Assembly (NCBI RefSeq): GCF_902506655.1
Contig: NZ_LR734808.1
Span: forward strand, 1,922,001-1,986,000
Direction of reading: 5' to 3'
Source of the DNA: Marinoscillum sp. 108
GTDB taxonomy: Bacteria > Bacteroidota > Bacteroidia > Cytophagales > Cyclobacteriaceae
DNA: 64,000 bases
Of this stretch, positions 639 through 17,119 are shown one piece after another. Position 1 is the stretch's first letter. Each line of letters opens with the position of its first letter. The notes beneath the pieces were generated by a model. It made no database searches. It was not told the origin of the DNA and saw nothing but the letters and a program-made list of their open reading frames with translations. The position numbers and the translations under genes were made by a program.

Positions 639-1451
639 ATGAATACCACACGCATCACTGCCCTAAATTACACAACGCGTGAATACTTCAAACAAATTTA
701 TAAACACCGACATATCATAAGGTCGCTGGTAAGACGTGACCTGAAAATCAAATATTCCCAATCCGTACTTGGCTGGACTTGGGCATTCATACAGCCCTTA
801 ACAGCACTGATCATCTATTCCATTTTCTTCAGATATGTCTTCGACTTTCAGTTTGACAAATACCCTTACGCACTTTATGTACTCTCCGGTATTCTTCCCT
901 GGCACATGTTTAGCCAAAACCTGCACCAATCCTCCGGAGTACTACTCAGTGAGCAAGAGTTAATTAGAAAAATCGCCTTCCCTAAGTTCATTTTATTGCT
1001 AGCGAAAAGCTTCGTGAGCCTCATAGAATTAGGCTTTGGCCTGGTCCTTCTACTTACTTACCTGGCCATCCAATCAGGAATCACCTGGAACATCCTTTTA
1101 CTTCCTTGTATCGTACTCATAAACCTACTGATCAGCATGATTATCCCAATTTGGATTAGTCAGCTTTCGGTAAAAAAAAGGGATCTGCTGCACCTCGTCC
1201 CATATCTGGTTAATTTTGGAATTTGGCTAACTCCTATTTTCTACACCATCGAAAACACGCCCAAATTGCTCTCCACAATCATCTATGCCAATCCTATGAC
1301 TGGCATAACCATGACCTATCGGTGGGTACTATTCGGAGATCCTTTCCCTCTGGAGGCTCTTATTTCGCCCACCTTATGTATTGGTGTACTGTTGCTCCCC
1401 GGGATTGTTTTGTTTAAGAATTTTGATAAAAAAATAGTAGATCACATCTAA
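639..1451 (+). CDS. wzm: Polysaccharide ABC exporter, permease subunit (Wzm/TagG type)
   Basis: This 270-residue protein has the ABC-2 permease layout: an amphipathic N-terminus with the family signature RDLKIKYSQSVLGWTW at residues 33-48, then about six hydrophobic segments. Such proteins form the inner-membrane channel that moves lipid-linked O-antigen or teichoic-acid-like polymers to the periplasm. The stop overlaps the next start by one base (TAATG), coupling it to the ATPase at 1451. Length is normal for the family. The identity of the exported polymer is not visible. Confidence 0.9.
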   Translation: MNTTRITALNYTTREYFKQIYKHRHIIRSLVRRDLKIKYSQSVLGWTWAFIQPLTALIIYSIFFRYVFDFQFDKYPYALYVLSGILPWHMFSQNLHQSSGVLLSEQELIRKIAFPKFILLLAKSFVSLIELGFGLVLLLTYLAIQSGITWNILLLPCIVLINLLISMIIPIWISQLSVKKRDLLHLVPYLVNFGIWLTPIFYTIENTPKLLSTIIYANPMTGITMTYRWVLFGDPFPLEALISPTLCIGVLLLPGIVLFKNFDKKIVDHI

Positions 1452-2557
1452 TGTTGGAGGTAAACCATTTATCTAAGTCTTACAACCGTTCGGAAGTATT
1501 GAATAACGTCAGCTTCAAGCTACTGTCAGGAGATATTGTGGGCATCCTTGGTGAAAATGGTTCCGGTAAGTCAACTTTGTTAAAAATCATATCAGGTATT
1601 GTGGCACCTACTGCTGGAGATGTCCGCTACGTGGGTCAGCTTTCCAGCCTACTGGAAATAGGCAGTGGCATACAACCAGACCTCACCGGGGAGGAAAATT
1701 ACTACCTCAAAGGAGAACTTCTTGGACTCAGTCGTCCAGACCTAAAGAACAGAATCGGTGAGCTCAACCAATTTACGGAGCTCGCTCCCTGGATGAACCA
1801 CCCGGTAAAACACTATAGCGATGGTATGTATATGCGACTGGCATTCGGGATAGCCCTCACCCTGGAAGCAGATATCTACCTCTTTGATGAGATCCTGGCC
1901 GTAGGCGATACCAAATTTCAGCAGAAATGCTTCGAAACAATCATCAACCTCTCCCAGAAAGGAAAAATCATCGTGCTGGTGAGCCACAACATCACAGAGC
2001 TGGAACGATACTGTAACAGATTCATTTGGCTCAAGAAAGGGGAAGTGAGAGAACAGTCTGATAGCCCTCAGGTTTTGGACAGGTACCTCAGAGATCAACT
2101 CATGGGGAGCGACCCAAACAAGATACTGCCATGGCAGCACGCAAGTCTGGCCTTTAGCCAGCTGAGCATCACCAATGAACAAGGGGAGCAAAGGCTTACA
2201 AACACCAATGAGATCTGGTTCGCAGCAGAATTTCAAATACTGAAACCCCTCTCAGTTTTCAACGTGACCATGCACATACAGGACCATTCGGGCTTGCCTA
2301 TTTTTTCTATATCCACAAGCACATCCGCAGGTTGGATACACGAAAAAAAACCACAGAACGTAAAATTGAGCACATTCGTCGAATCAGGTTTCCTTAATGC
2401 CGGTACATATACCGTATCTTTCTACATCCAAATAGAAAGCCGTGTATTTCAGCTCAGAAATCTCTTTTTTCTGGGTGTGTCTCAATCAGAATCAGATACG
2501 CAATCACATCTATTCAGTGGGAAAATCAGAACGAATTTTCAATGGAAGCAGCTATAA
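1451..2557 (+). CDS. wzt: Polysaccharide ABC exporter, ATPase with C-terminal cargo domain (Wzt type)
   Basis: The ATPase partner of the permease at 639, 368 residues. Walker A is GENGSGKST at residues 34-42. The ABC signature appears as YSDGMYMRL, where the usual SGG is SDG, as is common in Wzt/TagH proteins. Walker B with its glutamate is IYLFDEILAVGD. Residues from about 240 to the end lie beyond the nucleotide-binding domain and fit the beta-sandwich Wzt C-terminal domain, which in O9a-type systems binds the modified non-reducing end of the polymer. That fits a cluster full of tailoring enzymes. The last 16 bases overlap the next gene. Confidence 0.9.
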   Translation: MLEVNHLSKSYNRSEVLNNVSFKLLSGDIVGILGENGSGKSTLLKIISGIVAPTAGDVRYVGQLSSLLEIGSGIQPDLTGEENYYLKGELLGLSRPDLKNRIGELNQFTELAPWMNHPVKHYSDGMYMRLAFGIALTLEADIYLFDEILAVGDTKFQQKCFETIINLSQKGKIIVLVSHNITELERYCNRFIWLKKGEVREQSDSPQVLDRYLRDQLMGSDPNKILPWQHASLAFSQLSITNEQGEQRLTNTNEIWFAAEFQILKPLSVFNVTMHIQDHSGLPIFSISTSTSAGWIHEKKPQNVKLSTFVESGFLNAGTYTVSFYIQIESRVFQLRNLFFLGVSQSESDTQSHLFSGKIRTNFQWKQL

Positions 2558-3384
2558 AACCGCCAGTATTTTTAAATGCAGACATCCAACACTCCTTTGA
2601 GGAATCAGGCTTTGTGAAGCTTCCACTATTGGAGGATCAGGAGGTGCAGCACCTGGTCAAATTTGCTGATGAAGTACTTCATCAGCCAAGACCAGTGATC
2701 GGATTTGCCGAAAAGCTGAGCTATTACATTTCCATTTTTGATAATAACGCTGACCACAAGCTAACCGTCAATAACCTGATCGGTCAACTGGTACAGTCTA
2801 AACTGAGTAATATTCTGGTGGACTATGAGACCTTCTACAGCAACTTCATGATCAAATACCCCAACAATGGTTTTCTGGAATGCCATCAGGATTTCAATCT
2901 GGTAGATGAATCGATCTACACAGCTTTCAATCTATGGTGTCCACTCATTGATACCCATGAGCAAAATGGTGGCCTTTCATTCATTCCGGGAAGTCACAAA
3001 ATCACCAACCTCTACAGGGGCCCCAACATGCCCTTTTCATTCACTACCTATAATGATCAGCTGATCAAAAAAGGGATTCCACTCCCAGTAAAGGCAGGTG
3101 AATGCGTGATTTTTGACCATAAGACTATCCATTTTTCCACGCCCAATCAAAGTAACCAAATACGCTATGCCGTACAGTCCGTGCTAAAGCCTATGGAGGC
3201 CGAATCATTACTCTACCTGTATGACTCCCACCGTGAACAGGCTATTGCTAAGAAGATCACAACCCAGTTCACAATTGAATCCGGATTTTGGTCTGAAAAG
3301 ACCGCCGAATTACCTACGCTGCATACCCGACCCTACGCCAACCCTCAACTTCAGGATGATGTACAAGCACTAATACGAGGCTAA
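2542..3384 (+). CDS. Phytanoyl-CoA dioxygenase (PhyH)-family Fe(II)/2OG oxygenase, copy 1
   Basis: First of five consecutive PhyH-type oxygenases, 280 residues. The iron ligands are in place: His115-Gln-Asp117 (CHQD) and distal His197 in KTIHFSTPN, with Arg208 suited to hold 2-oxoglutarate. FIPGSHK after the HxD motif is typical of the family. Known members hydroxylate acyl-CoA, amino-acid-derived or sugar-linked substrates. Here the position directly after wzm/wzt suggests a glycan or its carrier, which is inference. The ATG at 2542 overlaps wzt by 16 bases. No signal peptide is seen, so the protein is cytoplasmic. Confidence 0.85.
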   Translation: MEAAIKPPVFLNADIQHSFEESGFVKLPLLEDQEVQHLVKFADEVLHQPRPVIGFAEKLSYYISIFDNNADHKLTVNNLIGQLVQSKLSNILVDYETFYSNFMIKYPNNGFLECHQDFNLVDESIYTAFNLWCPLIDTHEQNGGLSFIPGSHKITNLYRGPNMPFSFTTYNDQLIKKGIPLPVKAGECVIFDHKTIHFSTPNQSNQIRYAVQSVLKPMEAESLLYLYDSHREQAIAKKITTQFTIESGFWSEKTAELPTLHTRPYANPQLQDDVQALIRG

Positions 3385-3385
3385 A

Positions 3386-4360
3386 ATGAATCCAATTTTC
3401 AAAGACAAAAAACTAGATGAGCGATTAACCACTCATGGTTATCTGAAAATCCCCCTGCTTACTCCAGCGCTGACCCAAAGCCTACTTGATCTTTATCACA
3501 GTAGTGTCCGAGGTGAAGAGGTGAAAAACTCCCAATATGGCCTTTATGTTACTTTGGAGGAATTTGATACTGAAAAAAGCCTGGAGATCGAAAACCAGGT
3601 AGAACAACTGATCTCGGACCAACTGGATCGGTATTTTGAACCCTACAAAACCCATCTGGGCGGGTACCTGATTAAAAATCCTGACCCCAATGGTTATACA
3701 TACCCACATCAGGACTGGACATTTGTAGATCACAATCATTACCGATCTGTCACCGTCTGGATAGCATTAATGCCTATTACTCAAAAAAATAGTACCCTGG
3801 GCTTTGCCAGGAACAGTATGACCACATTCACCCATCCCGTAGGCACCCCGGTGACCATCATGAAATCGGGTACCACCGGACATGAATTTACGGTATACGA
3901 GTATTTGGATTTTATAGACATACAGCCTGGTGAAGCCTTTGTTTTTGACAATAGAATCGTACACGCGGCCACTCCAAACACCAGTCAGCATTCACGCATA
4001 GCTTATGCACTCACACTATCACCCCCATCAGCTCCGCTATTGCATTATCTCTATGCGAGAAATGAAGCCGGTGAGGACGACCTGATAAAGTTGGCGGTGG
4101 ACAAGGCCTTCTTCCACGACTACACCATTGAACATGCCGACGATCTGTACGAAAGAAATGAACTCCCTAAGGGATATAGAGTATTGAGCCGTGAAAAACC
4201 GACCTGGAGCCCAATGCCATCCAGTGCCTTAGAAACTTATCTGACTGAAAATCAACTCCAAAGGAATGGGTTGTGCATATCACACCATCATACCAACCCA
4301 ACAACAGAAAAAACATCACTCACAGCACGGATAAAGCAGTGGATCTCATGGAAAAAGTAG
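3386..4360 (+). CDS. PhyH-family Fe(II)/2OG oxygenase, copy 2
   Basis: A 324-residue oxygenase with ligands His108-Gln-Asp110 in YPHQDWTFVDH, distal His193 in RIVHAATPN and Arg204. It shares HLGGYLIK and PHQDWTFVDH with copy 4 at 5274, so these two form a subgroup distinct from copies 1, 3 and 5. The C-terminus carries an extra tail of about 40 residues ending in a basic, tryptophan-containing stretch (IKQWISWKK) that could sit on a membrane. It starts one base after the previous stop and overlaps the preferred start of copy 3 by 13 bases. Confidence 0.85.
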   Translation: MNPIFKDKKLDERLTTHGYLKIPLLTPALTQSLLDLYHSSVRGEEVKNSQYGLYVTLEEFDTEKSLEIENQVEQLISDQLDRYFEPYKTHLGGYLIKNPDPNGYTYPHQDWTFVDHNHYRSVTVWIALMPITQKNSTLGFARNSMTTFTHPVGTPVTIMKSGTTGHEFTVYEYLDFIDIQPGEAFVFDNRIVHAATPNTSQHSRIAYALTLSPPSAPLLHYLYARNEAGEDDLIKLAVDKAFFHDYTIEHADDLYERNELPKGYRVLSREKPTWSPMPSSALETYLTENQLQRNGLCISHHHTNPTTEKTSLTARIKQWISWKK

Positions 4361-5277
4361 TTAGACAACCTTTCAGGAACCCTGCATATCAAGCCAAATT
4401 CGAACAGGATGGTTATGTCATATTTGACTTATTGTCAGACGCACAATTGAACCACATCAGACAGCATGTGGAAAGCACCCCTCTGCCGGACACCAAAGGT
4501 TATGGATTCAATGTGGCCATGGACAGCGAGAGTCTTAGCCTCAGAAAAGAGATTCATCATTTCCTGATCGACTTTATGCATCCAATCTCTGCCGAGATTT
4601 TAATCGACCGGGAACCCTACTCCACCTCGTATATGATCAAAGAGGCCAATAGTGGCCTGGTACCGGCGCATCAGGATTGGAGCTACACCCATGAAGAGCA
4701 ACACGCCTCCATCATGTGCTGGGTAGCCCTGGACGATGTGGATCTAGAGAATGGTGCCATGGCATTTATCCCGGGTAGCCACCAGCTTTTTGACTATAAA
4801 AGAGTGTTCCCCTTTCCATATGCCAAAACCCCCGTAGAACGGTTCAAACTTGAGCTAATGTCTTACCTCCAAATAGAACCCATGAAAGCTGGACAAGTGG
4901 TTTTTTTTAACAACAAGACCATACACGGATCATTCCCTAATAATCAACCCAAGCGGAGATATGCTTTTTGCATGAGCTTTTCGGTAACCAATGAGCCAAT
5001 ATTGCATTTCCAATTTTCAGATCCTCAAAACCTGAATCAGATCACCGAATATGAAGTGGGAAATGACTTTTTTGTAATACACAACAACGAAACTCTCACG
5101 AAGACGCTCCTCCACGAGCATGGAAACCTGAAAGATGGGACCTTGAAAAAATCGGAACCTTACTACCTTCCGGAACTCAACTGGGAGTCTTTAGAAAGCA
5201 TGCTTCATGAACGAGGAATATACCGCTCTGAAATACTACAGGAAAGATTGAGACAGTTTTTAAATAAGCAATCATGA
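4348..5277 (+). CDS. PhyH-family Fe(II)/2OG oxygenase, copy 3
   Basis: A 309-residue oxygenase with ligands His108-Gln-Asp110 (AHQDWSY), FIPGSHQ, distal His193 in KTIHGSFPN and nearby arginines 203-204. The frame is open back to an ATG at 4273, but that would overlap copy 2 by 88 bases. The ATG at 4348 gives a 13-base overlap and begins MEKVVRQPFRNPAYQAKF, which lines up with the starts of the sister proteins, so I chose it. It ends in an ATGA overlap with copy 4. The substrate is unknown. Confidence 0.83.
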   Translation: MEKVVRQPFRNPAYQAKFEQDGYVIFDLLSDAQLNHIRQHVESTPLPDTKGYGFNVAMDSESLSLRKEIHHFLIDFMHPISAEILIDREPYSTSYMIKEANSGLVPAHQDWSYTHEEQHASIMCWVALDDVDLENGAMAFIPGSHQLFDYKRVFPFPYAKTPVERFKLELMSYLQIEPMKAGQVVFFNNKTIHGSFPNNQPKRRYAFCMSFSVTNEPILHFQFSDPQNLNQITEYEVGNDFFVIHNNETLTKTLLHEHGNLKDGTLKKSEPYYLPELNWESLESMLHERGIYRSEILQERLRQFLNKQS

Positions 5278-6320
5278 GATTTATTGATCAGGATATAGAG
5301 GATCATTTTACCCGGAATGGCTACTGCAAAGTGCAAATATTGAACGGTGAACTCGTAGAAGAACTTCGCCACTTTGCTGATAAACACATATTATCAGAGG
5401 CCATCGCCAATAGTGACTATGGCATGTACGTGTCGTTGGAAGAGCAGGAAGAAAAGAAGGCGCTAATCACGGCTTTTGTAAGGGAGAAGGTAGCCCCTCA
5501 GCTTGATGCCCATTTAACAGATTTTAAAATTCACCTTGGCGGATACCTCATCAAAGCCCCCGATCAGGTAAAGTACACCTTTCCTCATCAGGACTGGACT
5601 TTTGTAGATCATGAAACCGATCATACTTCAGCTACTGTCTGGATCAGCCTATATGACATAGACCAATCCAACGGGACACTTGGCTTTCTTAAGGGGAGTC
5701 ATCGTTTTCTAAATCACATCATTGGATCGCCATCCCCGGCAGTACCTACCCCATCCATGAACAAGGAGTTGTTGATCTTTTCCCATTTAACTTTTGAAAA
5801 TGTGTCTGCAGGAGAGGCACTTATTTTCAATAATAAAACCATTCATGCGGCCATGCCCAATAAGAGCGATCTCCATCGGGTAGCTGTAGGTATTGGTATT
5901 ACCCCTAAATCAGCCGGTCTTTACCATTATTACCTCAACCCTGATAACCCAAAGGAATTCCTGAAACTGGAAGTAGAGGAATCATTCTTTCTCCGGTATA
6001 ACAATGACGACCTCATGGAATTGTACCGGGCCGGTCTCTTGCCTGAGCTCTGCAAAGTGGTGGGCAGTTCGCCTGTTAGCCAGCATCTATACCCAGACCA
6101 ATCAACTGTAGAGCAGGATATTCTAGAATATGGCAATCTTCCGAATGGCCATATCATGGATCTACAAAATCACTTTGGCCAAAACGAGCCTGCTGAGGAG
6201 CCTTCTCAGGAACCCGAAACGGAGGAGCAGTACGTGGACACTCGCACCTTTTTTCAGATGTACACCCCATTGAATATCTACCGTGAAGCGCGTTACCGAT
6301 TGACCAATTTGTGGAAATGA
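5274..6320 (+). CDS. PhyH-family Fe(II)/2OG oxygenase, copy 4, with C-terminal tail
   Basis: A 348-residue oxygenase with ligands His105-Gln-Asp107 (PHQDWTF), distal His191 in KTIHAAMPN and Arg202. It is closest to copy 2. After the catalytic core comes a glutamate/proline-rich linker (about residues 295-315) and then a tail containing YTPLNIYREARYRL. A matching stretch, YSPANIAREVYYSYL, forms the N-terminus of the methyltransferase encoded at 7189, so the tail looks like a shared docking or membrane-binding helix. Both junctions are four-base ATGA overlaps. Confidence 0.85.
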   Translation: MRFIDQDIEDHFTRNGYCKVQILNGELVEELRHFADKHILSEAIANSDYGMYVSLEEQEEKKALITAFVREKVAPQLDAHLTDFKIHLGGYLIKAPDQVKYTFPHQDWTFVDHETDHTSATVWISLYDIDQSNGTLGFLKGSHRFLNHIIGSPSPAVPTPSMNKELLIFSHLTFENVSAGEALIFNNKTIHAAMPNKSDLHRVAVGIGITPKSAGLYHYYLNPDNPKEFLKLEVEESFFLRYNNDDLMELYRAGLLPELCKVVGSSPVSQHLYPDQSTVEQDILEYGNLPNGHIMDLQNHFGQNEPAEEPSQEPETEEQYVDTRTFFQMYTPLNIYREARYRLTNLWK

Positions 6321-7183
6321 AAAGCCTTTTCAAAGACCCCCAGGTGACCCAAAAATATCAGAAAGATGGATACGTGATCCTTGACCTCCTGAGTCCTATG
6401 GAAATCAAAGCAGAGCGAGACTTTTTTTACCAACATGTACATACCTTTGACAAAGAGCCTCTGTACGAAAGTAGCAGGAACAACAGCAATCAAACCAATG
6501 ATCTCATCAACAATCACCTCCAGCAGGTTTTCCTCCATAAAACACTGGATCACATCCGAAACGCTACGGTCTATGGAGGCACTTATATGGTAAAACCTAT
6601 GGGTAGCGAAGACTATCTGCCCTTACACCAGGATTGGAGTATCGTGGAGGAAGATCAGTTCGAGACAGCATTCATTTGGTGTCCGCTCCAAACTACAGAT
6701 CAGACGAACGGGGGTCTTTTTGTGGTGCCGGGAAGTCATCATTTCTACCAAAACCGACGATCTGGAAGTTTGCCCTGTCCGAGAATTATCCCGAACCGAA
6801 GGATAAAGCCCTATGTAAAACATCTGAAAGTAAGTGAAGGTCAAGTTATTATCTATTCAGATAAGGTATTCCACGGTTCACACCCCAATACCCGCCAGAC
6901 GCCACGAATAGTGGCTACAGCTCGCCTCGTAGAACAAGGTGCCCGTCTCACCTATTACCATCGTTTGAGCAATGAAAAAGTAGGTGTGTTTTATTTTAGC
7001 AAGGACACCTACCTAAACGGAATCACCCAGCTGGTGCAAGGCAAAATACCCGATGGGCTACAGCCTGAATACCTCGAAGACTTCAGAAACGAAGAAATAA
7101 ATGAGGCTAACTTTATTCAAAACATAAAAAAACACTTACCCTCTCCTACAGTCCTGAACAGACTGGCGGCCTGGTTTGATTAA
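6317..7183 (+). CDS. PhyH-family Fe(II)/2OG oxygenase, copy 5
   Basis: A 288-residue oxygenase with ligands His104-Gln-Asp106 (LHQDWSI), VVPGSHHF, distal His186 in KVFHGSHPN and Arg197. The frame is open from a GTG at 6311, but the ATG at 6317 makes the same ATGA stop/start overlap used elsewhere in this operon and gives the N-terminus MKSLFKDPQVTQKYQKDGY, so I prefer it. Five bases separate it from the methyltransferase gene. All five copies keep their ligands, so none looks like a decaying duplicate. Confidence 0.84.
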   Translation: MKSLFKDPQVTQKYQKDGYVILDLLSPMEIKAERDFFYQHVHTFDKEPLYESSRNNSNQTNDLINNHLQQVFLHKTLDHIRNATVYGGTYMVKPMGSEDYLPLHQDWSIVEEDQFETAFIWCPLQTTDQTNGGLFVVPGSHHFYQNRRSGSLPCPRIIPNRRIKPYVKHLKVSEGQVIIYSDKVFHGSHPNTRQTPRIVATARLVEQGARLTYYHRLSNEKVGVFYFSKDTYLNGITQLVQGKIPDGLQPEYLEDFRNEEINEANFIQNIKKHLPSPTVLNRLAAWFD

Positions 7184-7188
7184 TCTCT

Positions 7189-8100
7189 ATGAGCAATCTC
7201 TTCCAACTCATCAAAACCTACTCTCCGGCAAACATTGCTCGGGAGGTATACTATTCATACCTCCGGTCAAAAGATCATGCAGCAGGAGTTGGTGAGTTTT
7301 ACAACAAACACCATCAGGATTTTCTGGAAGTTTACGGAGAGCTTATTCAGGCGTTTAGAACAAGCGATATTGATGAGATTCTGGACTACGAGCTAGAAGC
7401 AATGCAAATATCTCCAGAAATGAAAGTACTGGATGCCGGATGTGGTGTGGGCCGCCCAGCACTTCATTTTGCTCAAAAAAGTGGTGCCCAGATAGAAGCC
7501 ATCAGCATCTCACAGCGACAAATCGACTATGCAAATAACCTGAAAGGTAAATTCAATACCGGAAATGTAACCTTCACCAAACTGGACTATCACAGGATTC
7601 AGGAGTACTTTGGTAATAGCCAATTTGACCGGATCTACTTTCTGGAATCATTCGGACACTCCACCAAAAAAAAGGAACTTCTCAAAAGTGTTTGGGATGC
7701 ACTCAAGCCAGGTGGGGAAGTATACATCAAGGATCTTTTTTGCCGGGTGACAGACAGCCGAAAAGATCAGAAGGTCATCAATAGGGAGATTGCTAAAATC
7801 AATCAACAATACCACTACGAGATATCAAACCTTACACAGTTTCTGGACATGGCAAGAAAAATGGGGTTCGTTTTGAAGCTAGTGAAAACCATAGACATAA
7901 AACTTGAAGCCTTCGAAAACCTGGCAATTTCCAACAAATTCCAGGAACTCACAGGCATTTATAAGATTGAAAGTTTTGATGGGTACATTTTTCCAGTAGA
8001 CTTTCTGGAAGTAAAACTTTACAAGCCGGCTTTCAATATGGAGGAAGCTAAGGATCGCTACTTTCTACAAAACCTTTTTTACAAAAACATTCGTTCATGA
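7189..8100 (+). CDS. Class I SAM-dependent methyltransferase
   Basis: A 303-residue methyltransferase. Motif I is VLDAGCGVGRPALHFA at about residues 79-94, followed by an acidic residue at the end of beta-2 (IEAISIS) and a DRIYFLESFGH motif resembling the fatty-acyl/C-methyltransferase branch. The first 25 residues include YSPANIAREVYYSYL, closely matching the C-terminal tail of oxygenase copy 4. Position inside the export operon suggests methylation of a sugar or lipid carrier, which is inference. The last codon overlaps the following start (ATGA). Confidence 0.8.
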   Translation: MSNLFQLIKTYSPANIAREVYYSYLRSKDHAAGVGEFYNKHHQDFLEVYGELIQAFRTSDIDEILDYELEAMQISPEMKVLDAGCGVGRPALHFAQKSGAQIEAISISQRQIDYANNLKGKFNTGNVTFTKLDYHRIQEYFGNSQFDRIYFLESFGHSTKKKELLKSVWDALKPGGEVYIKDLFCRVTDSRKDQKVINREIAKINQQYHYEISNLTQFLDMARKMGFVLKLVKTIDIKLEAFENLAISNKFQELTGIYKIESFDGYIFPVDFLEVKLYKPAFNMEEAKDRYFLQNLFYKNIRS

Positions 8101-8744
8101 TCATCACACCGGACTTTGTATGGACCCACATGGCCAAGACCGGAGGCTACTCCGTGCACCGGATGATTTCGCTGGTAGGGGATGAAAACATCCAGTTAGA
8201 TCCTCTGGGTGGAGAGTGGTCAGACTACCGCCGGCATGAACCTTTTTGGATGAGGTCCGAAAAATGTGGATATGACATCACCGCGAATAAGATTAAAGTG
8301 CTGACCATACGCCGGCTGCCCGCCTGGATTTTGAGCTTTGGTGAATTCAAGAAGCGAGAAGAAGGATTTGAATTCGACCTTCAGGAGCTCTCTAAGGGAT
8401 ATTTCAAACATGAAAAACGGGACATGGTCTCCGGTGGCTTATCTGATCCCGGATCATATGACACTCATCATGCAGACGAAGCACTGGCATACTACCGACC
8501 AGAAACCATCGATCACTGGTGGAAACAGGAATCGCTGAATGAAGATGTGGTCTGTTTTCTCGGAAGATTTTACACCCTCACACCCCTCCAAATCAAACAG
8601 ATGAGCTGTTCACATGAAAATTCAAATGAATATGACCGAAACCTCGGTAAACGCTTCTCACAGAGGCAATTAGAAGAACTCTATCATAACTGCCCGCTCT
8701 GGTCCACTTATGAGCAAAAGGTATATGGGTCACTTTTGGTATAA
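8097..8744 (+). CDS. Sulfotransferase-like protein
   Basis: A 215-residue protein. Its N-terminus WTHMAKTGGYSVHRM (residues 9-23) resembles the PAPS 5'-phosphosulfate loop of sulfotransferases (HxPKTGGTS), and VLTIRRLPAWILSFGEF near residue 70 resembles the 3'-phosphate-binding segment with arginine and serine. No other P-loop family fits as well, but the protein is short and the loop is atypical (MAKTGG). If active it would place sulfate on the glycan. No sulfate-activation genes lie in the window. It overlaps the UbiA-GT gene by 35 bases. Confidence 0.55.
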   Translation: MIITPDFVWTHMAKTGGYSVHRMISLVGDENIQLDPLGGEWSDYRRHEPFWMRSEKCGYDITANKIKVLTIRRLPAWILSFGEFKKREEGFEFDLQELSKGYFKHEKRDMVSGGLSDPGSYDTHHADEALAYYRPETIDHWWKQESLNEDVVCFLGRFYTLTPLQIKQMSCSHENSNEYDRNLGKRFSQRQLEELYHNCPLWSTYEQKVYGSLLV

Positions 8745-10902
8745 ACTCCGGCTCTCGCACCCGTGGAGATACAAAGCACCCGTGCTTCTGGCCTGTGTGT
8801 ATATGGTATTTATCAAAAAACAGACCTCCTTATCAGAAATGGCACCCTGGTTGGGTTTGTCATTGGTCACTATTGTAGGTATTGCGGGCATAGGCTATCT
8901 TATCAATGATTTTTCCGACAGACAGTCAGACGGAAAAGCCGGAAAACCCAACTTCTTTATTGATACAAGCCAACTGAAGGTGGCTCTGTCAATCACTGTC
9001 CTCACTTGCTGCGCCATCGGTCCTTGGTATTTCTTTCCAATGGACAGGCTTAGCTGGGTTCTGTTTACTGGCGAACTGGTCTGCTTTATTATCTACTCCT
9101 TGCCCCCATTCAGGCTCAAAAAAAACATCTGGGTGGCTCCTATTCTGGACGCTCTATATGCCCATGTATTGCCCGTAATCCTGGCCACCCATACCTTTCT
9201 GCTCATTACTCATGCTGAATTTTCCTTCCTCCATATGGCTGCCCTTGTATCATGGCAGCTGACACTGGGCATTCGTTTGCTCATCAACCATCTGGTAGAA
9301 GACCGACCACATGATCTTTTGAATTATCACACACTGGCTACTCAGTACAGTGCCCACCGGATTCGTAGATTCCTTTGGTACACGATGTTGATAGAATTAC
9401 TTCTGTTCACATCGGTACTATTCTTCGCTTCCAACTTGTTCATTAGTATATCGACCGGCTTGGTACTGCTGGCCTTTACGCTCAAACAGAAATCACGGTA
9501 TTCTTTTGTGGAAAATGTACCTGATTCATTTTACCGCAAGCTATTAGGAGGAGGACTGACTGTCGTGCTTATCTTTACTCATGGCTCAGCCTATGTGCTC
9601 TTACTGATGATCCATATGATCCTTTTCCCTGTGGGTCAGAGCCACGAACTCCGAAAAGTACTAAGCAAGCTGTATCAAATAGGCTCCGTCATCGTCAATT
9701 ACGGTATCTATTACTTTAGAAGATTCGTTTTACGTCAATCAGAAAAACAAGCCCGCCGGGAATATTATGAGCAAGACCTAATCAATAAAACCAACCAAAT
9801 GAAGTCTGACCAACTGGGTAGCATCACTATTGCTAATTTGAATCTTAACAAGTATTCTGAAACATACATCCATGAATACAAGAATCAGTTGCCATATGGG
9901 GTAGACTTCCTCTACGGTGGCTACCCACCTGTTTTTGATGAATTTGGTCAACCATTAATTAAATCCAAAAGCTCCATCAACAGCAAGCGGCAGTTACAGG
10001 ATGCCATCGTGCAAAGACTAAACAAGACCAGATCGAGACTGGTACTGGCTCATTTTGGCCCCATGGCAGTCAGAATGCTCCCGATTTGCAGAGCTGCTGG
10101 AGTTCCCATGGCTGCCTATTTTCATGCATACGACGTTCACCACAAAGACCAATTAGAAGCGCACCTAGCGGGTTATTTAGATGTCTTCAATCATGCCCAT
10201 TTGCTCATAGGTAGCAGTCAGGAGGTGATCAAAAAACTCAATGAAATGGGTGCTCCGGAGCAAAAGTTAAAGTACCTGCCCGCATATGTCGATCTCACCC
10301 GCTTCACCTATGTCGATCATTCTTCGAACCAACCTAACCTCCTAAGTGTAGGAAGATTTGCGGATACCAAGGCTCCGCATCTGACCATATTAGCCTTTAA
10401 GCAAGTGTTGGAGGAGGTTCCCAATGCACGTCTGACCATGATCGGTGACGGTGAGCTGCTGGAAGCCTCCATATCACTGACCAAGGCCCTACAGATCGAT
10501 CATAGGGTGAGTTTCCCGGGCGCAAGATCTCCAATGGAAATTTATGAGGAAATGAAAAACAGCCGGGTATTTCTACAGCACAGCATCACCACTCCTCTGA
10601 ACCACGACAAAGAAGGCACACCGGTAGCCATCATGGAAGCCATGGCTTGCGGTCTCCCGGTTATCAGCACAGCCCATGCGGGAATAGCCGAACTCATCAG
10701 CCATGAGCAAAACGGGCTTTTGATACCAGAACTGGAAATCGCTCAGATGGCCGAACAAACCATCAGATGTTTGAAATCTGTAGAATTAAGTAAAAAGCTT
10801 GGGAAAAATGCCTCAGAAAGCATTCGCAGTAATCCTTTGATTACCGATCACATGCGGATAATCACTGAAATGATCAATCACTTTGGGCTGAAGCAAGGAT
10901 AG
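8710..10902 (+). CDS. Fusion of UbiA-type prenyltransferase and GT-B glycosyltransferase
   Basis: A 730-residue two-part protein. Residues 1 to about 310 are hydrophobic, with the UbiA first aspartate motif NDFSDRQSD (residues 66-74, NDxxDxxxD) and a candidate second motif EDRPHD (197-202, DxxxD). UbiA relatives such as decaprenyl-phosphoribose synthase join a polyprenyl chain to a sugar phosphate. After a charged linker, residues from about 370 form a group-1/GT4 glycosyltransferase, with VGRFADTKAPH and the EGTPVAIMEAMACGLPVIS donor-site motif around residue 640. The fusion suggests that making and extending a prenyl-linked sugar are coupled. An ATG at 8725 is an alternative start. The 3' end converges on the next gene by 29 bases. 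Confidence 0.78.
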   Translation: MSKRYMGHFWYKLRLSHPWRYKAPVLLACVYMVFIKKQTSLSEMAPWLGLSLVTIVGIAGIGYLINDFSDRQSDGKAGKPNFFIDTSQLKVALSITVLTCCAIGPWYFFPMDRLSWVLFTGELVCFIIYSLPPFRLKKNIWVAPILDALYAHVLPVILATHTFLLITHAEFSFLHMAALVSWQLTLGIRLLINHLVEDRPHDLLNYHTLATQYSAHRIRRFLWYTMLIELLLFTSVLFFASNLFISISTGLVLLAFTLKQKSRYSFVENVPDSFYRKLLGGGLTVVLIFTHGSAYVLLLMIHMILFPVGQSHELRKVLSKLYQIGSVIVNYGIYYFRRFVLRQSEKQARREYYEQDLINKTNQMKSDQLGSITIANLNLNKYSETYIHEYKNQLPYGVDFLYGGYPPVFDEFGQPLIKSKSSINSKRQLQDAIVQRLNKTRSRLVLAHFGPMAVRMLPICRAAGVPMAAYFHAYDVHHKDQLEAHLAGYLDVFNHAHLLIGSSQEVIKKLNEMGAPEQKLKYLPAYVDLTRFTYVDHSSNQPNLLSVGRFADTKAPHLTILAFKQVLEEVPNARLTMIGDGELLEASISLTKALQIDHRVSFPGARSPMEIYEEMKNSRVFLQHSITTPLNHDKEGTPVAIMEAMACGLPVISTAHAGIAELISHEQNGLLIPELEIAQMAEQTIRCLKSVELSKKLGKNASESIRSNPLITDHMRIITEMINHFGLKQG

Positions 10903-11731
10903 TATCCACCCGCTGTTCCCATTCCGGGTAGCCTGAAATACTCGAGATTCTGGTAAGAAACAAATCCTCAAAATCCAACCCATCAGTCCGCTGCATGTTC
11001 AGGTTGGTCATAAAACCATAGCAGCTATCCTGAAGATTCACCTGGAGGTTCACCATGTAATCACGCCTGTACCATGAAGCATTCAGAGTGGGCTGAAGTG
11101 GGCCGGAAACATAAGCAGGATTGCAAATTTCATACCCTGTATCCAGGTAAGTTTCAGGTAAATATAAGTTAGCCCAGGATGTGTCATTTATAAAATAAAA
11201 ATCATGGGTTCCCCCACTTGCCACGGCCTGAAGAAACTGAAAAAAATCACCGAGAGAATCTCCTTCAAAAAGTGCCGAATTATAATGTGCATCCTGAACT
11301 GAAACAAGCCCATCGGAGAGTTCCACCAGCGTAAGTTCGTGAGTGAATGGTGTATGCTCAATTCCAAAATTATAGGTGGCAGATTGGAAGCCCAGCTCCC
11401 GATAAACATCCCGGAGAAGGTAGCTTAACCGGCCGCATGAAATATGATAGATGGTTGTATCCATTTGCAACAGAAGATCCGATGGTAAACGCTGTCTCCA
11501 GTCAGGAAATCGCTCATCAAAGGCAATCTCAGCCGTAGGATCCAGTGCTCTGTGAGCATAAAGTGATAAGTGCCTTCTCACCACATTGACCTGATCAGAC
11601 TCCTTCATCCGATCAAATAACAGTGGATCGAGATGAAGTGCGGAGATCGTTCCCTTGCGTTCATTTTCACCAGATTCACATGCCCACTGACAAGTCAACA
11701 ACACTATAAAAAACAGGCTACCCCTCCACAT
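10874..11731 (-). CDS. Exported transglutaminase-like protein
   Basis: A 285-residue protein with an N-terminal hydrophobic signal (MWRGSLFFIVLLTCQWAC) that may be a lipoprotein signal, although the lipobox is poor. The middle shows the spacing of a transglutaminase-like triad: Cys in ISCGRLSYLLRDVYRELGF, His in THELTLVEL, and Asp in VSVQDAHYN. Such folds act as cysteine proteases or amide-modifying enzymes. It is transcribed against the polysaccharide operon and overlaps the UbiA-GT gene tail to tail by 29 bases. I do not know its substrate, and the family call rests only on this triad. Confidence 0.5.
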   Translation of the reverse strand: MWRGSLFFIVLLTCQWACESGENERKGTISALHLDPLLFDRMKESDQVNVVRRHLSLYAHRALDPTAEIAFDERFPDWRQRLPSDLLLQMDTTIYHISCGRLSYLLRDVYRELGFQSATYNFGIEHTPFTHELTLVELSDGLVSVQDAHYNSALFEGDSLGDFFQFLQAVASGGTHDFYFINDTSWANLYLPETYLDTGYEICNPAYVSGPLQPTLNASWYRRDYMVNLQVNLQDSCYGFMTNLNMQRTDGLDFEDLFLTRISSISGYPEWEQRVDTILASAQSD

Positions 11732-11894
11732 ATCGCTAAACTAATGAAGGAAAATCAAAAACTGCATGCCCTGATTTTATTCATCCGGCCGGACTCAAAA
11801 CTGTATTCCTGTTTGACAGGATACCCCAAATCATAAGTATCTTTATCCGTTCGCATACCTAATTGGTCATGCAAGCATTTCTTATTTATCATTT

Positions 11895-12848
11895 GTGAAA
11901 CAACCTACACTTAGCATTATACTTTGCGGCAGAAATGACCGATACGGCGATGACTTCATTGACCGACTGAAGCGAAGCCTTTTATGGAATGCCCAACTTG
12001 CAGCAAAACATCACATCCAGACTGAATTGGTTTTTATCAATTATCACCCTGAAGAAAATCAAAAATGCATCTCATCACTGGACATCTGGCCCACTTCCGA
12101 TTATTGGAACTCCAGGGTCATTACGGTACGGTCAGCATCCGATGCCTTTCTTGAATTCCCTGCAAAAAACATTGGGATCAGGCGGGCACGTGGACAATAC
12201 TTTCTGATAACCAATGCAGATATTTTACTTCCGGAACTGTTTTTCTACTCTTTTCATCAATGGATTAAGCAAAGCAATACTATTTATCGAGCCGACAGGC
12301 TCAACGTCTCCAGGAGATACAACACCGAAGCTGCACTGATAAACACGGCAGATGAATACTGCGTGAAAGGTGGGATTTTTTATCGCCCCCTTATGATTCC
12401 TCATGGGCTATATTCTGCACTCCTCCCTACCTATCTTGGTGCCAGGAGAGCGGTCTATTCGTGCCTCCCATTTCTCCTGACACCTAGTGAGCAATTCTTG
12501 CTCAAACACCATTTTACAGCATCTGGTGACTTCACATTGGCACATCGGGATGTCTGGCATCGCATTCAGGGGTTTAGAGAACACACTCCCATCAGTACTC
12601 ATGTTGATTCCCTATGGCTGGTCAAGGCACTGAGTCACCAAATAAACTTACAAGAACTACCAATAGCCGTCCTGCACCAAAGCCATGAAAGGCGGCATAA
12701 TTTTTCATCTCCCAGTCAGGAAATGAATCAAATGTGGTCTATTTTGCAGAACCAAATCAGCGAGTACCTCGCTACCCGCACTCCAATAGTAGACACCACC
12801 GATCAATGGGGAAACCCGGAGATCAACTACCCAGAAGATAGTATCTAA
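11895..12848 (+). CDS. GT-A-like glycosyltransferase
   Basis: A 317-residue protein starting with SIILCGRNDRYGDDF, the first-strand motif of family-2-like glycosyltransferases, followed by AKNIGIRRARGQYFLITNADILL, where TNAD is the DxD-like site. The only in-frame start after the upstream stop is the GTG at 11895. It is paralogous to the next gene: SIVAASRNDNHGGD and TNVDLLF sit at matching positions. The stop overlaps that gene by one base (TAATG). It probably adds one sugar of the repeat unit, but donor and linkage are unknown. Confidence 0.68.
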   Translation: MKQPTLSIILCGRNDRYGDDFIDRLKRSLLWNAQLAAKHHIQTELVFINYHPEENQKCISSLDIWPTSDYWNSRVITVRSASDAFLEFPAKNIGIRRARGQYFLITNADILLPELFFYSFHQWIKQSNTIYRADRLNVSRRYNTEAALINTADEYCVKGGIFYRPLMIPHGLYSALLPTYLGARRAVYSCLPFLLTPSEQFLLKHHFTASGDFTLAHRDVWHRIQGFREHTPISTHVDSLWLVKALSHQINLQELPIAVLHQSHERRHNFSSPSQEMNQMWSILQNQISEYLATRTPIVDTTDQWGNPEINYPEDSI

Positions 12849-13876
12849 TGAATCCGTATTTATCTATTGTTGCAGCCAGCCGTAATGACAATCATGGAGG
12901 GGATCTTACCAATCGCATGGAGGTGTTTTTACGCGGTTTATATCACCAGCTGAGTCAGTATCATTTACCAACTGAAATCATCATTGTGGAGTGGAACCCA
13001 CCCTCCGACCGACCCGGACTCTCGGCTATATTGCCAAAGCCACCTTCCAATGGTAACATCATACTACGAATCATTACCGTACCCTACGAAATACACGCTC
13101 AGTATAAAACCTCCAGTCATCTCCCCCTCTTTCAGATGATTGCCAAAAACGTTGGGATAAGACGTGCCAAAGCCCCATTCATTTTATGCACCAATGTGGA
13201 CCTGCTTTTTTCCAGCAAACTGGTTCATTTTTTGGCTTCAAAAAAGTTAAAAAAAGGTACCTACTATCGGTGCAACCGGTGTGACATTCCGAAAGAGATT
13301 GACTACAGTGCTGAGATCCCGGTTCTGCTGAAGTTTGCCAGAAAAAACATCATACAAAGACTCGGGAAAAATCGGCTCTACCCCAATTTCAATGGCCAGA
13401 GTAAGTGGTGGTACCACAATATTTTAACACTGGGAATGGTGTGGGGTATTGCGCTCATTAAAAGGTTCACCGAGTCCAGACTGACAACCACCATCGAAAG
13501 TGCAGACACCTGGGCTTGCGGAGACTTTACCCTCATGCATCGCGAAGACTGGGAAAAGATCAATGGCTATTTCGAATTGGATGCCTATTCAATTCATATC
13601 GACAGCCTGGCCCTTTTTGCCGCCCTGGGACAGGGTATTCATCAAAAAATACTTGCACCTGAACTGTGTATTTTTCACATTAGCCACCGAGCTGGCTGGG
13701 AACTACAGGATCCCATGCAAAAAATAAAGTTTGACATTCAAATGCCCATGCTGGACTGGAATACTGCCAAAGCCGCTTGCGAACATATGCTTAGAGAGCA
13801 AGTGGTATTACCAATCAATGGGCCAGACTGGGGTCTGCTGGGCAGGACGCTGAATGACACCACAATAACTGGATAA
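12848..13876 (+). CDS. GT-A-like glycosyltransferase, paralogue of the preceding gene
   Basis: A 342-residue protein with SIVAASRNDNHGGDLTNR at the N-terminus, AKNVGIRRAKAPFILCTNVDLLF (DxD-like TNVD) near residue 105 and WACGDFTLMHREDW near residue 220. The last matches ASGDFTLAHRDVW in the preceding protein and probably forms the acceptor side. The ATG shares its first base with the upstream TAA, so the two are translationally coupled. They may build successive linkages of one glycan. Confidence 0.68.
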   Translation: MNPYLSIVAASRNDNHGGDLTNRMEVFLRGLYHQLSQYHLPTEIIIVEWNPPSDRPGLSAILPKPPSNGNIILRIITVPYEIHAQYKTSSHLPLFQMIAKNVGIRRAKAPFILCTNVDLLFSSKLVHFLASKKLKKGTYYRCNRCDIPKEIDYSAEIPVLLKFARKNIIQRLGKNRLYPNFNGQSKWWYHNILTLGMVWGIALIKRFTESRLTTTIESADTWACGDFTLMHREDWEKINGYFELDAYSIHIDSLALFAALGQGIHQKILAPELCIFHISHRAGWELQDPMQKIKFDIQMPMLDWNTAKAACEHMLREQVVLPINGPDWGLLGRTLNDTTITG

Positions 13877-13904
13877 CCAGGAGTTGTAAAATAGATATTT
13901 GAAC

Positions 13905-14885
13905 ATGCGTAAATACATACTTGTTTGTGGAGGAAGTGGTTTTATCGGGACACACCTGATCAAAAAGCTGGTAAACGAGGGACACAAGGTACTTTCAGTA
14001 GACATTTCAAATCCCATGCATCAGGAGAGCATCAACTTTGAGTTTATTCAGGGTGACTTGAGGGACTACTCCAAATGCATGGAAATAATGAAAAACGGCC
14101 CATTTGATGAAATCTATCAACTGGCAGCAGACATGGGGGGTGCCGGGTACATATTCACTGGTGACTCTGATGCTGACATCATCACCAACAGCGCTCTGAT
14201 CAACATCAACATTCTCAAATGCTGTGTAACCTTTGACTGTAAGAAAATCTTCTATTCATCCTCTGCCTGCATCTATCCTCAACATAATCAGCTAGATGCT
14301 TTAAATCCATACTGTGAAGAATCTTCGGCCTATCCAGCCGATCCTGATAGTGAGTACGGGTGGGAAAAATTATTCAGCGAACGCTTGTATTTTTCTTATC
14401 AGAAAAATTACGGTATCGATGTAAAAGTGGCCAGGTTTCATAATGTATATGGCCCGTTTGGTGCCTGGAATAATGGTAAAGAGAAAGCGCCATCAGCCAT
14501 CTGCAGAAAAGTAGCCGAAGCTACCAACCCGGGTACCATCGAAATCTGGGGTGATGGAAACCAGACTCGTACATTTTTGTATATTGATGACTGCCTGGAT
14601 GGTGTCCAAAAGCTTATGGATTCGAACTTTCATGGCCCATACAACATTGGTTCCGAAGAGTTGATTTCCATCAATAACCTGGCCAAAATGGCCATGGAGA
14701 TTTCAGGAAAGGATTTGAAATTTGAACATATAGAAGGCCCCATGGGTGTAAGGGGAAGATCCTCGCACAACCTCAAAGTACGCAGCGACCTGGGATGGCA
14801 ACCTGAAACCTCTCTTCAGGAAGGCCTCGAAAAAACCTTTCACTGGATCAACCACCAGGTACAAGAGGCCTTGCAAACAAAATAA
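13905..14885 (+). CDS. GDP-mannose 3,5-epimerase
   Basis: A 326-residue short-chain dehydrogenase/epimerase. The NAD loop is GGSGFIG (residues 9-15). The catalytic set of plant GDP-mannose 3,5-epimerase is present: Cys122 in SSACIYP, Tyr151 and Lys155 in YGWEK, and Lys194 in GKEKAP. RFHNVYGPFGAW, GDGNQTRTFLYIDDC and GPMGVRGR also match that family closely. The product would be GDP-L-galactose (or GDP-L-gulose), a rare donor in bacteria. The frame is open from a TTG at 13899, but the ATG at 13905 gives the standard N-terminus. Four bases separate it from the next gene, suggesting an operon. Confidence 0.85.
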   Translation: MRKYILVCGGSGFIGTHLIKKLVNEGHKVLSVDISNPMHQESINFEFIQGDLRDYSKCMEIMKNGPFDEIYQLAADMGGAGYIFTGDSDADIITNSALININILKCCVTFDCKKIFYSSSACIYPQHNQLDALNPYCEESSAYPADPDSEYGWEKLFSERLYFSYQKNYGIDVKVARFHNVYGPFGAWNNGKEKAPSAICRKVAEATNPGTIEIWGDGNQTRTFLYIDDCLDGVQKLMDSNFHGPYNIGSEELISINNLAKMAMEISGKDLKFEHIEGPMGVRGRSSHNLKVRSDLGWQPETSLQEGLEKTFHWINHQVQEALQTK

Positions 14886-14888
14886 AGA

Positions 14889-15998
14889 ATGGCTAATAAT
14901 AGTATAGGATTAATAGGTCCCGGGAGACTAGGGCTGTGCGTGGCATTACTTTTAGAACAAAAAGGCTACTCCGTAACGGCCATAGAGCAGAATCAGCGCT
15001 ACCTGGAAGCTCTTCAGACCAAATCGTTTGACAGCCCTGAGCCTGAAGTAAACGAACTCTTGAGAACCAGTAAACACCTCCGGTTTTCTTCAGACCTCAA
15101 GGAGTGTCTCACAGAGGATCATGAATTGATCTTTATTTATGTACCCACTCCTGAAAATGACCAGGGATATGATCATTCCATTCTAAAGGGGGTACTGGAG
15201 GCTATCATGAACCAGGGTGAACGCAAGCATCCTGTGACCCTTGTGGTGGGGTGTACCACTTTACCTGGCTTTAATCAAACCATAGAGGAGCGACTCAAGG
15301 CACTCAATTATCATCTCGTATATAGTCCGGCATTTATCGCACAGGGCACCATAGTAAAAAACCTCCAACACCCGGATATGTTGCTTTTTGGAGCATCAGA
15401 TATGACCTATGCACTGAAAACAGAAGTCATAATGAGTCAGATAGCGCTAAATCATCCGCAAGCACATCATATGAGCCTTATTAGTGCTGAGATCACCAAG
15501 CTCGCAACCAACTGCTTCCTAACAGCCAAAATTGCCTTTGCCAATGCCATAGGTGACCTGGCCAGCCAATCAGGTGCTGATCAAAAAGCCATACTGGGAG
15601 CCATAGGCTCTGACTCCCGAGTGGGTCATAAATACCTCAGCTACGGGTATGGATTTGGCGGGCCATGTTTCCCCAGAGACAATCGGGCACTTAATTATTT
15701 TGCACGAGAGGCTGGATATACGCTGCAGATCAGTGAAGCCACGGAACGCGCCAATGAACAGCATACAGACTTTCAAATCGCTCAGTTACTTCAAACCACC
15801 AGTCAGCAGGAAGAAATATACTTTGATCACGTCACCTACAAACCAGGCACAGATATTCTTCAGGAATCACAGCAGCTCAAAATCGCCTTGGCTTTGGCCA
15901 AAGAAGGGAGATTAATCAAGGTATGTGGTTCATCTAAAGTGGTTCAGACCCTCAAGAGTACCTACGGGAATGTGTTTCGTTATGAGGTGAAAAACTGA
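14889..15998 (+). CDS. UDP-glucose/GDP-mannose dehydrogenase-family protein
   Basis: A 369-residue nucleotide-sugar dehydrogenase with Rossmann loop GPGRLGLCVA at the N-terminus, IYVPTPEND, AEITKLATNCFLTAKIAFAN and the active-site cysteine segment GFGGPCFPRDN. Enzymes of this family oxidise the sugar C6 of UDP-glucose or related donors to the uronic acid. At 369 residues it is shorter than the usual 420-450, so the C-terminal domain is reduced, and the usual lysine after the cysteine (GGxCxxKD) is arginine here. It is in the same operon as the epimerase, and its 3' end overlaps the opposing aminotransferase by 19 bases. Confidence 0.78.
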   Translation: MANNSIGLIGPGRLGLCVALLLEQKGYSVTAIEQNQRYLEALQTKSFDSPEPEVNELLRTSKHLRFSSDLKECLTEDHELIFIYVPTPENDQGYDHSILKGVLEAIMNQGERKHPVTLVVGCTTLPGFNQTIEERLKALNYHLVYSPAFIAQGTIVKNLQHPDMLLFGASDMTYALKTEVIMSQIALNHPQAHHMSLISAEITKLATNCFLTAKIAFANAIGDLASQSGADQKAILGAIGSDSRVGHKYLSYGYGFGGPCFPRDNRALNYFAREAGYTLQISEATERANEQHTDFQIAQLLQTTSQQEEIYFDHVTYKPGTDILQESQQLKIALALAKEGRLIKVCGSSKVVQTLKSTYGNVFRYEVKN

Positions 15999-17113: not shown

Positions 17114-17119
17114 ATACCA

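Follow-up and report, generated by a model that had tools for sequence, protein, structure and literature searches.

In the ATP-binding cassette (ABC)-dependent O-antigen export of Escherichia coli O8/O9a, the chain end is modified by WbdD in a Wzm-Wzt system whose Wzt has a C-terminal domain; a terminator of this type moves a methyl or phosphate group to the chain end, where it is read by Wzt. Elsewhere, EvdO1, EvdO2, AviO1, and HygX are oxidative cyclases of orthosomycin or aminoglycoside oligosaccharides. Here, we examine a 64,000-nucleotide stretch of the Marinoscillum sp. 108 genome (NZ_LR734808.1, positions 1,922,001 to 1,986,000; the window), in which five adjacent genes of the PhyH family (PF05721) lie in a glycan-type locus with a Wzm-Wzt exporter. 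As in the O8/O9a system, a single operon here encodes Wzm, a Wzt whose C-terminal domain resembles Wzt_C (slightly under the Pfam cut-off), and a methyltransferase, but the locus type adds three to seven PhyH oxygenases. The oxygenase set is real, conserved, and largely ordered; the glycan-export locus that holds it is a variant form of ABC-dependent export, and one of the oxygenase subfamilies is unexpected.

The orthosomycin and aminoglycoside cyclases share the PhyH fold with the array, and the methyltransferase-oxidase fusion EvdMO1 is a precedent, but these enzymes make antibiotics and not exported envelope glycans. As far as the accessible part of the source goes, the closest forerunners in which several PhyH enzymes work on a single oligosaccharide are the orthosomycin enzymes (PMC10338323). 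The closest published precedent that we found is the PhyH gene XAC3597 of Xanthomonas citri, which the available portion of the paper places within a putative lipopolysaccharide (LPS) cluster with wzm/wzt (PMC3130047). The likeness to the window is a PhyH gene beside wzm/wzt, with an envelope-linked mutant phenotype, whereas, compared by description, that portion names one PhyH gene and no ordered array. Among the open-licence PubMed Central papers listed by our literature searches, none describes, by title or abstract, an occurrence of several PhyH genes at one Wzm-Wzt locus.

Five PhyH genes and their counterparts in the genus

The array consists of the following genes, with groups assigned from trees and scores given for PF05721.

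2542 to 3384, + strand: PhyH copy 1, group A, keeping HxD; 80.2 bits
3386 to 4360, + strand: PhyH copy 2, group B; 49.7 bits
4348 (ATG, start read from the bases) to 5277, + strand: PhyH copy 3, group B; 88.3 bits
5274 to 6320, + strand: PhyH copy 4, group B; module YTPxNIYREARYRL near the C terminus (residues 330 to 347, approximately); 52.2 bits
6317 (ATG; alternative GTG at 6311) to 7183, + strand: PhyH copy 5, group C; 67.1 bits

All five exceed the family cut-off of 22 bits (range, 49.7 to 88.3). The first-pass annotation of this DNA had described five adjacent, overlapping genes. They are indeed five, intact and adjacent, but overlap is confined to three of the four inter-copy junctions (13, 4, and 4 nucleotides), copies 1 and 2 being separated by 1 nucleotide; at the other side, copy 1 shares 16 nucleotides with the end of wzt. 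The HxD...H triad and trailing arginine that had been read in every copy are borne out, with H115, D117, H197, and R208 (copy 1 numbering) invariant in the five-copy alignment, in which copies 2 to 5 are 23 to 25% identical to copy 1. The five copies are PF05721 members with intact metal-binding and 2-oxoglutarate residues and, judged from these residues, would be expected to perform Fe(II)/2-oxoglutarate-dependent catalysis. We rejected a halogenase assignment for the window copies because HxD is retained: chlorinating enzymes (TIGR01762) carry HxA or HxG instead, and the best TIGR01762 score was 36.2 bits against a cut-off of 226.3.

Since five of the six PF05721 matches of the source genome sit in the array, chance clustering is not a sensible explanation. 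A search across the order covered 118 genomes, the source included; 65 have at least one PF05721 match at E <= 1e-8, and among the matches listed, inspected by eye, a cluster of at least three in 15 kb occurs in the source genome only. Of 14 control genomes, one has a match.

A subgroup tree of 44 domains from ten sources, built after removal of three long or odd rows, places copies 2 and 4 in one nine-row clade (support 100/100), as first proposed. The other proposed subgroup, copies 1, 3, and 5, does not stand: a clade of these copies and their same-genus orthologs was rejected (log-likelihood 144 worse; approximately unbiased test, P = 4.9e-72), and copy 3 joins copies 2 and 4 in a wider group B clade of 18 rows (100/99). 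Copy 5 forms its own group (group C), and copy 1 is sister to a clade known from other loci in which HxD is replaced by HxN (97/97 in the 44-domain tree; 96 in a tree of 122 domains).

The array recurs in two of five other genomes searched in the genus (G001 and G003), the remaining three having no match at E <= 1e-3, and locus order is shared by the window and these two genomes. Marinoscillum furvescens DSM 4134 (G001) has copies 1, 2, 4, and 5 and lacks copy 3. G003 has copies 1 and 2 fused, copy 3, and a copy 4-type gene on one contig and, on a second contig, another copy 4-type gene and a copy 5-methyltransferase fusion, six PhyH domains in total. For every window copy, one or both of the two genomes hold an ortholog; identities to the window are 57 and 56% for copy 1, 62 and 51% for copy 2, 56% for copy 3 (G003 only), 58, 55, and 47% for copy 4, and 55 and 51% for copy 5.

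The copies could be redundant and have arisen by recent duplication, either adding to enzyme dose or drifting, a reading helped by the relatedness of copies 2 and 4, by the two copy 4-type genes of G003, and by the missing copy 3 of M. furvescens. We regard it as highly improbable: across the three genomes, the copies have their own orthologs at 47 to 62% identity, against about 20 to 38% between paralogs; the catalytic residues are intact in all five; and group order is largely conserved across several Bacteroidota orders (see below). One-to-one orthology and largely fixed order instead argue for separate, non-redundant steps.

Beyond the genus, the locus is sporadic in distribution. At least four of 295 family genomes match at E <= 1e-18 and at least two of 395 phylum genomes at E <= 1e-25, the window's genome included in both counts; at most 7 and 5 candidates per genome, respectively, were scored. 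A reduced locus in another family (L041) has Wzm, Wzt, one PhyH-methyltransferase fusion, a fusion of UbiA-type prenyltransferase and family-4 glycosyltransferase (UbiA-GT4), and a GRND-type protein.

Related arrays and the export locus around them

We scanned 84,980 species genomes with an alignment that combined copies 2 and 4 with the orthologs of both; 99 stretches matched the pattern, 24 were confirmed, and 21 non-duplicate loci remain, L061 to L063 being repeats of G001 and G003. By the choice of query, these loci are biased to group B genes, and the presence of group B in every locus is no finding. Twenty of the 21 are from Bacteroidota (several orders, by title) and carry three to seven PhyH domains in the fetched stretch; the other is from Vicinamibacteria (L084) and has one PhyH gene. 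Within the fetched stretches of the 20 arrays, Wzm is present in 15, immediately before a PhyH gene in 14, and Wzt is present in 12. A methyltransferase accompanies 16 arrays; those without one are L069 and L080, which are short contigs, and L075 and L078, which are not.

The first-pass annotation had suggested a search for wzm-wzt neighborhoods with at least three PhyH genes. The scan yielded 15 non-duplicate arrays holding Wzm, which, together with the wzm-wzt-linked arrays of the window and two same-genus genomes and the PhyH-methyltransferase fusion beside wzm-wzt in L041, supports the view that the array belongs to a glycan-export locus type. The same annotation knew of no described export system with five such enzymes; as a singular case, this does not hold, since relatives carry three to seven.

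With groups assigned from a quick tree of 122 domains and the gene map, the usual order is (E)-Wzm-A+B-F-D-G(+MT)-Wzt, where MT is the methyltransferase. F immediately precedes D in all 11 loci with both, and D immediately precedes G in 11 of 11; the methyltransferase is fused to G, next to it, or the third gene on in 12 of 14 loci. Exceptions are B before A (L066 and L080), A after Wzt (L077), and the lack of F and D (L071 and L072). The window array reads A, B, B, B, C, and methyltransferase, and L064, with Wzm-Wzt-B-B-G, is like it. On a 5.65-Mb contig of G711, with groups assigned by best BLAST match, the order is Wzm-A-H+B-F-D-G-MT-Wzt, followed by a PhyH gene on the opposite strand and then by GTm, GNAT, GT2, and KAS genes. 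The recurrent sets of three to seven PhyH genes suggest a dedicated oxidative finishing line.

In the window, the open reading frame (ORF) map and Pfam scans of the proteins delimit a glycan-type locus at 639 to 17113. Besides the array, it contains the following.

639 to 1451, + strand: Wzm-type ABC-2 permease (ABC2_membrane, 35.3 bits; cut-off, 26.9)
1451 to 2557, + strand: Wzt-type ATPase with a C-terminal Wzt_C-like domain at residues 235 to 328 (ABC_tran, 70.3 bits)
7189 to 8100, + strand: class I S-adenosylmethionine (SAM) methyltransferase starting with a YSPxNIxRE module (Methyltransf_31, 54.6 bits)
8097 to 8744, + strand: conserved 215-amino-acid protein, ortholog in L040 at 58%
8710 to 10902, + strand: fusion of UbiA-type prenyltransferase and GT4 glycosyltransferase (Glycos_transf_1, 119.2 bits; UbiA, 30.4 bits, cut-off 34.2)
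11895 to 12848, + strand: conserved protein starting with GRND/SRND, without a Pfam family; has orthologs
12848 to 13876, + strand: second protein of the same family, 69 to 75% to same-genus orthologs
13899 to 14885, + strand: NAD-dependent sugar epimerase/dehydratase (Epimerase, 153.4 bits)
14889 to 15998, + strand: UDP-glucose/GDP-mannose dehydrogenase family protein (UDPG_MGDP_dh, 95 bits)
15980 to 17113, - strand (opposite): DegT/DnrJ/EryC1-type sugar aminotransferase (240.4 bits)

The adjacent ABC-2 permease and ABC ATPase each exceed their own Pfam cut-off; the Wzt_C domain of the latter (E = 1.8e-6; 28.4 bits) falls slightly under its cut-off of 30.4, and the match of the permease to NCBIfam galactan_ABC_perm is far below cut-off. 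No scanned window protein matched a WbdD-type kinase. The 215-amino-acid protein has zero Pfam or NCBIfam matches, and its P-loop-like HMAKTGG start presumably resembles that of sulfotransferases. The family of the two GRND/SRND proteins, which has an S(I/V)xxxRND..GGD start and no Pfam match, is also found in L041 (4839 to 5894); by eye, the protein at 11895 to 12848 looks glycosyltransferase-like. Taken as a whole, the operon probably builds and exports a surface sugar.

Upstream of the locus in the same genome (L007) are a ketoacyl synthase III gene (KAS III; Pfam-scanned) and GT2-like and GNAT-like genes (by eye). A stretch of about 9.6 kb masked with N (L007, about 7640 to 17260) lies between KAS III and a large gene that by eye is repeat-rich and adhesin-like. 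Sugar-nucleotide genes and a KAS III/GT2/GNAT module occur both at the window genome locus and at L062, L064, L066, L070, L071, and L072, which is what would be expected if the PhyH enzymes acted on free precursors, either nucleotide sugars or the KAS III/GNAT acyl group, before glycosyl transfer, as in aminosugar pathways. This is rather improbable in our judgment, since L041 keeps its PhyH-methyltransferase fusion by Wzm-Wzt with no KAS or GNAT model match in its 15.6-kb stretch and since coupling to exporter and methyltransferase better fits late tailoring.

Some arrays have other genes within or beside them. In L067, a gene between array and methyltransferase (13710 to 15158) has a weak copper type II monooxygenase match (25 bits; cut-off, 30); in L072, two genes lie between array members (11547 to 13575), one resembling by eye a DNA cytosine methyltransferase; and in L079, type I restriction genes directly follow the array (12999 to 17758).

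The molecule on which the array acts

Our preferred explanation, which we consider somewhat probable, is that the array works as a cassette for the oxidative tailoring of a surface glycan. In its favor are the overlapping genes of the operon, the locus order kept in the two same-genus genomes and, in reduced form, in L041, the Wzm genes of 15 of the 20 arrays, the adjacency of F, D, G, and methyltransferase, the PhyH-methyltransferase fusions, and the X. citri precedent. The PhyH enzymes and the adjacent methyltransferase would modify the lipid-linked glycan, or one residue of it, on the cytoplasmic side, each PhyH paralog performing its own step (hydroxylation, oxidation, epimerization, or ring closure), after which Wzm-Wzt would export the product. 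We infer that all five copies are catalytically active and act on one molecule, that this molecule is the exported glycan, and that modification precedes export. The modification might even serve as a terminal cap or export tag, a weaker inference. That the enzymes act in series on the glycan or its terminus, and that the Wzt C-terminal domain may then read the result, as the first-pass annotation proposed, are conjectures.

Matches to known proteins are compatible with this tailoring. An AlphaFold2 model of copy 4 (30-row alignment) has a mean predicted local distance difference test score (pLDDT) of 89.5, and near the top of its Foldseek matches are SnoK, an alpha-ketoglutarate oxygenase (8zyb), SnoN, MysH, AviO1, HygX, TlxIJ, and EvdO2 (TM-scores, 0.37 to 0.62); sequence matches to solved structures are led by MysH, PHYHD1, and SnoK. 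Fold and sequence matches fit small-molecule or glycoside chemistry without fixing it; the TM-scores are modest and give no sharp discrimination. Matches to TIGR04324 and TIGR04436 ("sporadic carbohydrate cluster 2OG-Fe(II) oxygenase") recur weakly in several copies; the name places TIGR04324 in carbohydrate clusters, but the scores (19.5 to 35.1 bits overall and at most 28.5 in the window) are far under the cut-offs of 150 and 200.

Several observations weigh against a glycan-tailoring cassette. The copy 4 model is uninformative on the substrate. The fourth family match (G017, L042) has one PhyH gene and the second phylum match (G372, L087) two adjacent ones, both with none of the other locus models within 20 kb. 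As for the X. citri precedent, one of three table values for the XAC3597 mutant (84.8) is marked changed, and the gene is not named in the list of seven LPS-associated bdp genes given in the accessible part of the paper (PMC3130047). Four of the 20 arrays (L065, L079, L081, and L082) are without Wzm in their stretch, so that the transporter as an obligatory partner is unsupported; L080, the fifth array without Wzm, is a 5.5-kb contig. An alignment search of seven genomes at E <= 1e-8 matched Wzm in five and not in those of L065 and L079, which is weak evidence because these are draft genomes; the genomes of L081 and L082 have one weaker Wzm each, before Wzt, with no 40-mer in common with the array stretch. 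All four arrays keep a methyltransferase and a UbiA-type gene, the latter seen by Pfam in L079 and L081, by an NCBIfam prenyltransferase match below cut-off in L065, and by a custom model only in L082, which leaves room for a prenyl lipid or some other metabolite as the target. They approach, without clearly reaching, an array that lacks glycan genes, which the first-pass annotation had named as the finding that would speak against its view.

Alternatively, the PhyH enzymes might oxidize the lipid part, whether the polyprenyl/isoprenoid carrier or a UbiA-type product, and not the sugars, with Wzm-Wzt exporting the modified glycolipid. Classical PhyH works on an isoprenoid acyl chain, and UbiA is fused to a glycosyltransferase both in the window and in L041 (5905 to 8169), which, like the persistence of UbiA-type genes and methyltransferase where Wzm is missing, favors a lipid target; in L071, the fusion is split into two genes, and stand-alone UbiA exceeds the Pfam cut-off in L071, L079, and L081. 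However, glycoside-acting enzymes (SnoK, SnoN, AviO1, HygX, and EvdO2) are among the nearest solved relatives, sugar genes are present in the window and many relatives, and no isoprenoid-specific oxygenase family matched above curated cut-off. We therefore think a lipid target unlikely and retain oxidative tailoring of the glycan as the preferred reading.

Radical SAM proteins of the Twitch/SPASM-first type lie near arrays in L072 (6746 to 8023), L081 (14706 to 16235 and 16703 to 18241), and L065 (11850 to 13421). One L081 radical SAM/SPASM protein scores 153 bits with NF033640, under the cut-off of 170, and a protein near the exporter-type locus L072 scores 382 bits, which hints that exporter-type and Wzm-less loci are connected. 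L081 also has a gene resembling by eye a family-32 glycosyltransferase. UbiA and an MqnE gene on L098 brought up the idea of a quinone pathway, which was set aside; L098 and L099 both overlap L081. Two further stretches, L100 and L101, have no tested 60-mer in common with L079 or L065 and carry no weight here.

HxN counterparts of copy 1 and the YTPxNIxxE module

In 122 PhyH domains of the window and related loci, the metal-binding aspartate is present in 104 and replaced by asparagine in 18, and the arginine is present in 120. The 18 HxN domains, which keep both histidines and the arginine, coincide exactly with the group A genes, the counterparts of copy 1, from 18 of the 21 non-duplicate loci; aspartate is retained in the three group A genes from the genus, window copy 1 among them. 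Their loci and positions are as follows.

L066, 6389
L067, 9071
L068, 8127
L069, 4294
L070, 8235
L071, 9098
L072, 9107
L073, 9083
L074, 662
L075, 8227
L076, 9074
L077, 16005
L078, 8194
L079, 9033
L080, 1703
L081, 8248
L082, 8250
L083, 2070

The HxN proteins are as conserved as their array neighbors: across six loci, mean identity is 72.5% for HxN group A, against 66.2% for B, 74.3% for F, 67.8% for D, and 52.2% for G, with 61.1% for group E (five loci). Conservation was judged by amino acid identity, the ratio of nonsynonymous to synonymous substitutions (dN/dS) not being estimable with dS saturated in five of seven pairs, including both HxN pairs. The HxN domain is fused to a group B domain in nine of the 18 loci, and an HxN-HxD fusion was matched in 10 of 87 genomes of the L071 family, counting that of L071 itself and some known scan loci; G711 is one of the 10. 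Later loci added 17 unique domains, of which four are HxN, eight HxD, and five truncated without a readable motif; the four HxN come from two stretches of one genome (G711), from G747, and from a distant protein in L115. This last one (G730:C340, ORF 1489 to 2373), a PhyH protein that reads HQN, differs from the HxN clade in the surrounding sequence.

Against the PDB, one HxN domain has its best sequence match in PHYHD1 (E = 3e-6), followed by EvdO2. A model of the fused HxN-HxD protein is only moderate (pLDDT, 72.6; predicted TM-score, 0.51), with low confidence beside the first site, and supports no claim. An auxiliary partner in a PhyH-type fold is known from TlxI-TlxJ (PDB 7VBQ), a heterodimer of auxiliary and catalytic Fe/2-oxoglutarate proteins to which the fold of copy 4 is matched, but, in the available part of the source, TlxI is without the 2-oxoglutarate-binding arginine, whereas HxN proteins keep both histidines and the arginine and change the metal-binding aspartate (PMC12141560).

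A second shared feature is the module of copy 4. Among 391 ORFs (duplicate loci L061 to L063 included), a strict pattern centered on YTPxNIxxE was matched 16 times: 11 times at a group B C terminus, copy 4 included, twice at a methyltransferase N terminus, including that of the window, and three times as a fusion linker, one being in the PhyH-methyltransferase fusion of L041 (8184 to 10094). In the copy 4 model, the module forms a C-terminal helix (residues 332 to 347; pLDDT, about 60 to 67), a moderate confidence only, and it may have a docking or membrane role. PhyH-methyltransferase fusions are found in L040/L061, L041, L068, L071, L072, L074, and L076, with PhyH first. Sugar and small-molecule O-methyltransferases (6uv6, "D-glucose O-methyltransferase," and MitM) are among the matches to the methyltransferase part of the L071 fusion. 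Domain order is reversed in PDB 6ec3, which we take to be EvdMO1 (the entry is named "Methyltransferase domain-containing protein"), where the oxygenase match is C-terminal (residues 359 to 460 of 471).

A broader picture, which we put forward tentatively as a doubtful but possible one, is that three to seven PhyH paralogs work as a fixed set, an oxidative assembly line for an exported glycan that would extend across the Bacteroidota. In this picture, the counterpart of copy 1 would have turned into a conserved protein with HxN, which either pairs with a group B oxygenase as a non-catalytic heterodimer subunit or is itself an enzyme whose iron site is altered, window copy 1 being its HxD counterpart. 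The YTPxNIxxE module may tether oxygenase and methyltransferase to a common complex or to the membrane.

To our knowledge, the surface glycans of environmental Bacteroidota are chemically poorly known. A conserved multi-oxygenase cassette predicts heavily oxidized sugars or glycolipids that are invisible to gene annotation alone, and the HxN clade is a natural test case for the function of 2-His-Asn PhyH proteins. With M. furvescens DSM 4134 as a cultured carrier, the question is experimentally accessible.

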